From a bacterium OL-1 (GTDB taxonomy: Bacteria > Actinomycetota > Coriobacteriia > Coriobacteriales > Atopobiaceae), in the NCBI GenBank assembly GCA_000752675.2, contig LM994625.1, forward strand, positions 252,655 to 316,654: a stretch of 64,000 nt of DNA, read 5' to 3'. Each line of letters starts with the position of its first letter. Position 1 is the stretch's first letter. The position numbers were made by a program, and so were the translations under genes. Under the pieces are notes generated by a model that was not told where the DNA came from, made no database searches, and saw nothing but the letters and a program-made list of their open reading frames with translations. Positions 1-59,135 of the stretch are shown one piece after another.

Positions 1-89
1 GCATACTTGCGCGCAAAGTGCCCCACCACATGGTAGGCAGCAAGAGATGCTGCAAGGAACAGCAGGAAATGCAGCGAGAACAGTTCCAA
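1..89 (-). CDS. Probable N-terminus of an MBOAT-type membrane O-acyltransferase (cut by window edge)
   Basis: The minus strand leaving the window is open for about 30 codons and reads ELFSLHFLLFLAASLAAYHV followed by VGHFARKY. This hydrophobic start with an F-S-x-x-F-L-L-F-L pattern resembles the first membrane segment of AlgI/DltB-like MBOAT proteins. I chose a TTG start at 89 because CGGGAG lies a suitable distance upstream. An in-frame ATG at 125 would add 12 residues but has no visible ribosome binding site. Only the first segment is present, so the family call is an inference from one short stretch. Confidence 0.35.
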   Translation of the reverse strand, partial: MELFSLHFLLFLAASLAAYHVVGHFARKY

Positions 90-3077: not shown

Positions 3078-3197
3078 CTCGTCACCCTTTCCGTCGTAAT
3101 TAGTACGCCCCATGGTAGCGTTCCCGCGGGGTTCCGCTCTCGTCGACGTTCTTTTCGCCGTCAGCGCCAACCCCTGTCGTAGCAGCCGACACGCCGA

Positions 3198-3271
3198 AAT
3201 TACGCACGGCCGTGATTCAGGTTCGTGTGTTGCTGGGCTTTTCTCGACGATAGACTCAGCCGTGCGTAGTT
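3198..3271. repeat. Repeat family A, copy 1 (74-bp element with terminal inverted repeats)
   Basis: The element starts AATTACGCACGGCCG and ends CAGCCGTGCGTAGTT, giving near-perfect terminal inverted repeats of about 14-15 bp. A second copy at 26563-26635 shares both ends and most of the interior, including GATTCAG and TGCTGGGCTTTT. It lies between the nitroreductase and DUF1304 genes. No coding potential is seen. Confidence 0.8.
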
Positions 3272-3342
3272 CGGAGCTCTGGGGACGGCGAGAAGCTCGC
3301 GGCCTCCGAAACACGATTCGCCCCCATCCAAACCCAAATTTC

Positions 3343-9041: not shown

Positions 9042-9287
9042 GGTGCATCGAAGTGCCCTTCGTTACACAATTTTTCTCTCCGCTGCGCTGAAGTGCCCTT
9101 CGTTACACGTAGTTGATGATTCACCTAAAGTAGCGAACCATTGCGAGACCGAAAAAGCGCAGATAGGAGCGTTATCAACTCTTTAACTATAGTTAAAAGT
9201 CCGATCAGGCACGAAAAGCAGGTGTAACGAAGGGCACTTCGGCGCAGCCGCAGGCATTTCTGTGTAACGAAGGGCGCTTCGATGCAC
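9042..9287. repeat. Repeat family C, copy 1 (four-box mirrored element)
   Basis: Two 25-bp boxes (TGCATCGAAGTG then CCCTTCGTTACAC; second TGCGCTGAAGTG then CCCTTCGTTACAC) start at 9044 and 9084. Two inverted copies (GTGTAACGAAGGG...) start at 9222 and 9262. The pitch is exactly 40 bp at both ends and the whole is symmetrical about 9165. The 113-bp core contains AGTTGAT/ATCAACT arms and a perfect TTTAACTATAGTTAAA palindrome at 9182-9197. Copies 2 and 3 are at 28282 and 58891. No protein is encoded. Confidence 0.9.
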
Positions 9288-12591: not shown

Positions 12592-12665
12592 GTGCTTTTG
12601 AGAACAAATTCGACGTTTTGGGCCGCCCGAGGATGCCATTCTGTCCAATTTCTTCTCAACAGCAC
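12592..12665. repeat. Repeat family B, copy 1 (74 bp)
   Basis: The element runs from GTGCTTTTGAGAA to TTCTCAACAGCAC (terminal inverted repeats with one mismatch) with interior GACGTTTTGGGCCG and GCCATTCTG. It is the most diverged of three copies; the others are at 19861 and 21331. It lies between the pfl terminator and the broken MFS gene. Confidence 0.75.
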
Positions 12666-19738: not shown

Positions 19739-19860
19739 CTGCGCGTTTATATCCACCTGCAACATAGCCGCAGCACAAGCGAAACGAGTTATGGCTCCCG
19801 AAACAATCGCTGAGTCAATAGTCCTGGGCTGAGAGTTCTTATCGTGCTTTCCGGCCGATG

Positions 19861-19927
19861 GTGTTGAGAACTTTTCGGACGTTTTAAGCCGTGTGGAAGC
19901 CCCATTCTGGCGAATTCCTTCTCATCA
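19861..19927. repeat. Repeat family B, copy 2
   Basis: It runs from GTGTTGAGAAC to TTCTCATCA with interior CGGACGTTTTAAGCCGTGTGG and CCATTCTGGCGAATTC. It lies just past the 3' end of the MFS gene. Copy 3 lies just before the 5' end of the same gene in the same orientation. Confidence 0.85.
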
Positions 19928-19942
19928 GTACAAGGCGGGTCG

Positions 19943-21330: not shown

Positions 21331-21404
21331 GTGCTGTTGAGAACTATTCGGACGTTTTGTGCCGTGTGGAGGCGCCATTCTGGCGAATTTCTTCTCAACA
21401 GCGC
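21331..21404. repeat. Repeat family B, copy 3 (best-preserved, 74 bp)
   Basis: GTGCTGTTGAGAAC at the left and TTCTCAACAGCGC at the right form near-perfect terminal inverted repeats. The interior CGGACGTTTTGTGCCGTGTGG and GCGCCATTCTGGCGAAT matches copy 2 closely. It lies between the GH2 and MFS genes. Confidence 0.85.
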
Positions 21405-26523: not shown

Positions 26524-26562
26524 CGGCCTCCACAACCGACGGGGGCCCCTAATCGCCCGTCA

Positions 26563-26635
26563 AACTACGCACGGTCGCGATTCAGCTTTGTGTGGTGCTG
26601 GGCTTTTGTCCGCACTGCACTCGACCGTGCGTAAT
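26563..26635. repeat. Repeat family A, copy 2 (73 bp)
   Basis: AACTACGCACGGTCG at the left and CGACCGTGCGTAATT at the right form the same terminal inverted repeats as copy 1 (3198-3271). The interior GCGATTCAGC and GTGCTGGGCTTTTGTC is well conserved. It lies between the PTS remnant and the terminator of the flavoprotein gene. Confidence 0.8.
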
Positions 26636-26698
26636 TCGCGTGCCGAGAAGCACCGGAGAACACGCATGACGAGAACCTCGCGCCCATGAACCCCTACG

Positions 26699-28281: not shown

Positions 28282-28525
28282 TGCATCGACACCGCCCTCG
28301 TTACACAAATTCGCGAACAAATGCGCTGAACTGCCCTTCGTTACACGTAGTTTCGAAGGATGGCGAAGTAGAGAGGTATGCATGTTGTGGTCGTGGTCAA
28401 CCTAACCACAACATGATGAGTATCGCGACACCTCGATACTTCGGAGTCTCTCCAAACCCTATGTAACGAAGGGCAATTCAGCGCAAAACTTAGGAAAATC
28501 GTGTAACGAGGGGGATTTCGATGCA
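28282..28525. repeat. Repeat family C, copy 2 (four-box mirrored element)
   Basis: Boxes start at 28282 (TGCATCGAC then CCTCGTTACAC), 28322 (TGCGCTGAAC then CCTTCGTTACAC), and, inverted, 28461 and 28501. Pitch is 40 bp at both ends and the symmetry centre is 28403.5. The 114-bp core is unrelated in sequence to copy 1. It contains CATGTTGTGGT/ACCACAACATG arms (28381-28414) nested in CGAAGTA/TACTTCG arms, so the core could fold into one long hairpin. Confidence 0.9.
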
Positions 28526-58890: not shown

Positions 58891-59135
58891 TGCATCGAAC
58901 TCGCCTTCGTTACATGAATTGGTCCGCGATTGCATCGAACTAGCCTTCGTTGCACGCCAATTCTGAGGAAATGCCCGTCTGGCAATTTACTTTGATAGTT
59001 TATGCATGGCTCTACCTGCGGATTTTCATGCAGCGCAGCAGACGACTACTCAAGGGGTCCGCGAAATGGCGTGCAACGAAGGGCAGTTCGGCGCACGAAA
59101 TCCTCTCGATGTGTAACGTAGGGCAGTTCGATGCA
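58891..59135. repeat. Repeat family C, copy 3 (four-box mirrored element)
   Basis: Boxes start at 58891 (TGCATCGAACTC then GCCTTCGTTACAT), 58931 (TGCATCGAACTA then GCCTTCGTTGCAC), and, inverted, 59071 and 59111. The pitch is again 40 bp at both ends, symmetrical about 59013. The 115-bp core differs from those of copies 1 and 2 and is bounded by GCCAATT and AAATGGC. Unlike the other copies, both left boxes have the TGCATCGAA form. Confidence 0.9.

Follow-up and report, generated by a model that had tools for sequence, protein, structure and literature searches.

The 64,000-nucleotide window analysed here (positions 252,655 to 316,654 of contig LM994625.1, assembly GCA_000752675.2, bacterium OL-1) contains three mirror-symmetric elements of about 250 bases, which we term C elements. 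Copy 1 (9044-9286) consists of an outer box at 9044-9068 (+), an inner box at 9084-9108 (+), a core at 9109-9221 (113 bp), an inner box at 9222-9246 (-) and an outer box at 9262-9286 (-). Copy 2 (28282-28525) has boxes at 28282-28306 (+), 28322-28346 (+), 28461-28485 (-) and 28501-28525 (-), with a core at 28347-28460 (114 bp), and copy 3 (58891-59135) has boxes at 58891-58915 (+), 58931-58955 (+), 59071-59095 (-) and 59111-59135 (-), with a core at 58956-59070 (115 bp). The boxes are 25 bp long and the pitch is 40 bp in all six pairs. A detector using the geometry alone (pitch 39-41, inner distance 134-145) found exactly these three places in the window at a pair score of 84 or more of 150, and none at 80 or more in two block-shuffled windows; when a pitch of 28-55 was allowed, one additional noise-level place was reported with a score of 88, against 113-136 for the three elements. 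The 18-base part of the box had 11 matches in the window against 0.02 expected, the twelfth box, the left outer box of copy 2, being too degenerate. All three copies lie outside the genes predicted by a simple gene-calling script of our own. The four-box repeat described in the sequence-only reading is therefore real. Its statement that the core sequences differ completely is only partly right, as shown below. Two further repeats occur in the window: an intergenic-looking repeat of 70 nt in three copies (12593-12662, 19859-19928 and 21332-21401) with inverted ends TGCTGTTGAGAA / TTCTCAACAGCA, and a 77-nt repeat in two copies (3197-3273 and 26562-26638) with inverted ends around ACTACGCACGG / CCGTGCGTA.

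Next, we searched the whole genome (hereafter G000) with a single box of 18 letters, one of them free, allowing up to 3 mismatches. This search gave 21 forward and 21 reverse matches, against 1 and 1 for the reversed control, and all 42 fell in 12 four-box elements; an exact variable-gap pattern was too strict and returned 0 hits. Among 140 genomes of the family, the C box pair was found in 8, all belonging to one of 35 genera, which comprises gut and rumen bacteria. An exact scan of a species-level collection found 18 stretches in six assemblies, namely Tractidigestivibacter scatoligenes, T. montrealensis, three Olsenella sp. (KH3B4, kh2p3 and Marseille-P4559) and an uncultured MAG, RUG11916. 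The C element gave no match against plasmids and phages, nor did the D element (described below) against plasmids or the exact C and D pair patterns against viral contigs; D was not compared with phages. We retrieved 63 loci (designated by L numbers) from the 8 genomes (G000 to G007), of which 57 have an inner inverted pair. Of the six without one, by inspection L122 looks like a deletion derivative, L134 has one box pair only, L135 has a single box and L150 is degenerate, while L123 shows one weak match and L151 none.

Whether pitch and core length vary freely across the genome had been named in advance as the observation that would overturn the original proposal, and they do not. Of 114 C half-elements, 102 have a pitch of exactly 40, nine have 39 or 41, and three have no recognisable outer box. 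The inner box starts are 139 bp apart in 27 elements, 138 in 19, 140 in 9, 137 in 1 and 141 in 1, and the core length is 113.8 bp (standard deviation 0.78, range 112-116). The 12 copies of G000, found by single-box search, are unbiased in this respect, whereas part of the loci in other genomes came from a fixed-pitch pattern, the single-box matches considered in G006 and G007 were a partial set, and only inner distances of 130-148 were accepted. The half profile of the 57 elements shows an A/T run after the outer box, TTT at +29..31 and AAGTA at +44..48 from the inner box, although these motifs are not present on both sides of each window copy. The core is thus not wholly free in sequence.

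Comparison of orthologous gaps revealed a second family, which we term D. At the locus of window copy 1, G001, G003, G005 and G006 have no C element but carry a four-box element with another box (TGCAYAAAANNGCYCTATCGRACGG), the same 40-bp pitch and a core of 119-121 bp. The locus of copy 2 has no four-box element in G001 (where part of a box is left), G003 and G004, while at the locus of copy 3 C elements are present in G001, G002, G004 and G007. We then retrieved 40 further stretches at C loci from species without a listed C element and applied the geometry-only detector. Counting both of the window loci so compared, 47 locus-species pairs at 15 loci were examined, and D was found in 17 pairs at 6 loci; one more stretch (L202) shows two D-type boxes at its edge and was not counted, and nine loci gave no D. 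Absence of D is unsure at some of these pairs, because at several only one flank lies in the stretch. With 11 D elements in G000 and roughly 500 long gaps (our estimate from a gap sample), about one such pair would be expected, although the species are related and this is no exact test. At L199 (contig C8 of G000, position 117919), a D element begins directly at the end of a leftover C outer box, and the left flank is 96% identical to a species that has a whole C element there.

D pairs occur in the same 8 of 140 genomes. In 36 D elements the pitch is 40 in 72 of 72 half-elements, and the inner distance is 145 in 31, 146 in 4 and 144 in 1. For elements found by the D pair pattern the pitch was given by the query, so its constancy is unbiased only for the 17 elements at loci chosen by flanks (13 found with pitch 38-42 and inner distance 95-189 allowed, and 4 with pitch 39-41 and 130-149 allowed), all of which have a pitch of 40 and an inner distance of 144-145. 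C and D differ by 6 bp in inner distance and are therefore not simply one geometry. One D element (L257:12070-12360; contig C2 of G000, position 460769) has a fifth box made by an exact 40-bp duplication of box plus linker. D box ends also vary by element and species: CTATCTAA is found in most boxes of three of the four G003 elements listed (not in L236), and CTATCGCGGGG or GGGC in three of four boxes of G006 L175 but not in L231. Outside this genus, 20 other genera were sampled with 330 kb in all. In one of them, another genus of the family (G035), a 0.75-kb gap (L283:17423-18173) is full of mirrored boxes TGGCAYRAG...TAG plus an ending shared within a unit, in three 148-bp tandem units with a pitch of about 32; its detector score was 101 against noise of 88-94 elsewhere in that scan, and it may be a distant cousin of C and D.

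Registered on the dyad, the conserved core positions of 28 non-redundant D elements peak near 9, 20, 29, 39, 50 and 58-61 bp from the centre, the last running into the inner box. The best period is 10.3 bp, as on wrapped DNA, and 0 of 1000 shuffles and 0 of 1000 block shuffles were as strong. In C (32 elements) the signal is weak, and the best repeat distance in the autocorrelation is 15. A 40-bp pitch corresponds to four turns of 10.0 bp or 3.8 turns of 10.5.

We also assessed constraint in place. Of 79 same-locus C pairs, 60 were used and 19 were dropped for too few aligned core columns or a flank below 70% identity. In 34 pairs with a core identity of at least 80%, identity was 0.973 for the inner box, 0.960 for the outer box and 0.992 for the AAGTA segment, against 0.941 for the linker, 0.936 for core 25-42, 0.947 for the core centre, 0.920 for flank 1-60 and 0.931 for flank 250-450. 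In 26 diverged pairs the corresponding values were 0.886, 0.843 and 0.755 against 0.540, 0.565, 0.600, 0.684 and 0.872. The pairs share species and are not independent, and they were split by core identity; with this reservation, the boxes and AAGTA change more slowly in place than linkers, core and near flanks.

Boxes were further compared with their mirror partners. In one C element per locus (17), left and right inner boxes match better within than between elements (0.894 vs 0.848, p=0.0002). Outer boxes do so in this count (0.816 vs 0.776, p=0.002) but not in G000 alone (p=0.23) or with a fixed register (p=0.09), and of the four other pairings one is weakly raised (right outer with right inner, p=0.04). 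In 26 D elements five of six pairings are raised, most the inner pair. Linkers show no matching in either family (0.407 vs 0.403 in C and 0.381 vs 0.391 in D), and of the core segments only D 43-60 does (0.586 vs 0.544, p=0.008). This speaks against a continuous hairpin and for a symmetric complex whose equivalent sites share a variant. A structured RNA whose arms pair is accordingly very unlikely, even though mirrored boxes are complementary by layout: pairing is not kept along both arms, the elements show no orientation bias to genes, no Rfam match reached the gathering score in the window, and only four sub-threshold matches were found in five loci.

To examine genomic context, 22 elements were placed relative to predicted genes (15 C, 3 of them from other species, and 7 D of the 11 in G000). 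They lie between predicted genes, with C in 4 divergent, 4 convergent and 7 tandem gaps and D in 2, 1 and 4, respectively; one (L263) overlaps a predicted gene start by 21 bp. No common neighbour function emerged, since the flanking genes scanned, which were not all flanks, are mixed and mostly housekeeping; beside the element at the L031 locus, gene positions were called but not annotated. Only 1 of the 23 C and D elements of G000 lies on the 692-kb contig C10, which makes up 28% of the genome (P=0.005, post hoc), but GC skew was too weak to place the terminus, so this near-absence could not be tied to origin or terminus. The C box resembles an actinobacterial SOS-box pattern with one mismatch, whereas the D box does not; this resemblance was not pursued.

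The sequence-only reading had offered two interpretations, paired transposase- or recombinase-binding sites at transposon ends and a four-site binding platform for a DNA-bridging protein, and was partly supported: the slow change of the boxes in place, the matching of mirrored inner boxes within an element and the 10.3-bp phasing in the D family favour the platform, though all indirectly, and the transposon end is not supported. Two direct repeats per end facing each other is the layout of IS21 ends, where a transposase tetramer holds L1/L2 and R1/R2 (PMC10122671), C elements mostly begin TGC and end GCA, and presence and absence vary between species. However, no target duplication of 2-9 bp was detected in 17 C and 28 D elements (smallest p 0.09); only the position directly at the box edge was tested, and old duplications could have decayed. 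Near-identical copies at different loci were not found: the 57 C cores gave four cross-locus matches of 24-60 bp only, and the 36 D cores gave none within one genome at 1e-6 and cross-locus matches of at most 72% over 86 bp or 85% over 39 bp. Copying of cores between loci was not seen. No C box in G000 lies outside the 12 elements, so no autonomous relative with the same ends was found there; in the other genomes only part of the matches was examined, and one lone box pair near a contig end in G003 (L134) was not resolved, so that for them the question stays undecided and the transposon-end reading is not excluded. Where both types are absent, more than the element is gone and no clean empty site was seen: in G001 at the L037 locus 325 bp are replaced by 1 bp, and in G002 at the L120 locus 428 bp by 55 bp. 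G000 has one istA-type gene, in an IS21-type gene pair (L184; contig C2, position 877729), but the likely inverted pair of 27 nt around it is unlike C or D boxes. Recent transposition is therefore unlikely, and old miniature transposons (MITE-like), whether fossils or very slow movers with the boxes as transposase sub-sites as at IS21 or Mu ends, are a doubtful alternative, also given the slow change of the boxes in place.

A REPIN-like population moved by a Y1 (RAYT-type) transposase is a remote possibility. Y1 transposase genes occur once or twice in 7 of 8 genomes, but none of the 10 Y1 loci retrieved (L323-L332), of 11 matches, has a C box or a four-box element, although the D-box score used there does not discriminate. 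The four inspected for repeats have other short palindromes at their ends, and G006 has C and D elements but no Y1 match.

Recombination sites, at which a tyrosine or serine recombinase flips the core or exchanges flanks, also appear unlikely. The C box reads, in our view, as 9-bp inverted arms around 6 bp, but the D box shows no such dyad. Between-species identity shifts at or near element edges at several loci (L128, L155, L156 and L158, in G002 and G007), as if recombination tracts or rearrangements end there; for example, the left flank of G002 L128 is unrelated (27-43%) up to an element with 100% identical left boxes. At the L031 locus the G003 core (L133) fits better inverted (scores 18-25 against -7 forward for three near-identical alleles), a level of 18 that is reached by 28 of 3034 unrelated comparisons. 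Only 7 of 79 same-locus pairs fit as well or better inverted, all involving diverged cores, and no recombinase was identified. With one possible inversion and edge shifts for which no control points were tested, these observations do not decide whether strands are exchanged at the boxes.

Among described systems, the ends of IS21-family transposons (also Mu and Tn7) share two direct repeats per end, ends facing each other and a two-fold symmetric assembly of four sites (PMC10122671), but there a complete end is 55 bp, so the repeats lie closer, the ends flank genes for transposition, and insertions make target duplications, whereas here the unit is 245-250 bp with no gene and no detected duplication. 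REP, BIME and REPIN elements are likewise dispersed intergenic inverted repeats of bacterial chromosomes (PMC2817692, PMC3116915), but those are short palindromes in high copy tied to a Y1 transposase, while these are 23 large composite sites in G000 without a linked Y1 gene. Small MITE-like repeats such as Correia and ERIC are a few hundred bases long, mostly intergenic and without a transposase inside (PMC10969869), and the present elements differ from them in having four boxes at a pitch of 40 bp, a core length kept to about one base and two box types in the same gaps. Chromosome-organising site families such as matS, parS or Noc sites are also dispersed sites for one architectural protein, but are short single sites, and binding of any protein to the present elements is untested. 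In a non-exhaustive literature search on Tractidigestivibacter and on repeats, MITEs and insertion sequences of Olsenella or coriobacteria, no title or abstract concerned such elements.

The simplest account, which we hold with moderate confidence, is that each element is a selected, dyad-symmetric protein-binding platform of about 245-250 bp. In this view, a sequence-specific DNA-binding protein sits on the four boxes, the two halves are held in one rigid complex, and the AT-rich core between them is bent or wrapped in step with the DNA helix. The likely role would be chromosome architecture (wrapping, bridging or marking a place) rather than control of one promoter, because the elements lie in gaps of every gene orientation. 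C and D would be two binding specificities of one kind of system, carried side by side in all eight genomes of the genus examined and able to stand in for one another in the same gap. The geometry, the two families, the shared gaps, the slow change of the boxes, the partner matching and the 10.3-bp phasing in D rest directly on sequence, whereas that a protein binds, that it wraps or bridges, and the architectural role are inferred; no binding protein is known, none was looked for directly, and binding in the cell was not measured. Elements are missing at many orthologous loci, and G003 and G006 carry few box pairs, so they are not indispensable. A more speculative and doubtful possibility is a previously undescribed chromosome-organising system, in which related DNA-binding proteins each assemble a nucleosome-like, dyad-symmetric wrapped complex of fixed size on four-box elements at set chromosomal slots, and the box specificity of a slot switches as a unit between species; the mirrored arrays with another sequence in a second genus (L283) would make it a wider coriobacterial system.

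Intergenic repeats in bacteria are commonly put down to decaying mobile DNA. Here the geometry is kept almost to the base while the sequence between the boxes drifts, two box types share the same slots, and in one family conserved bases recur once per helical turn around a dyad, which makes a concrete prediction of a rigid wrapped or bridged complex at about two dozen places on one chromosome.
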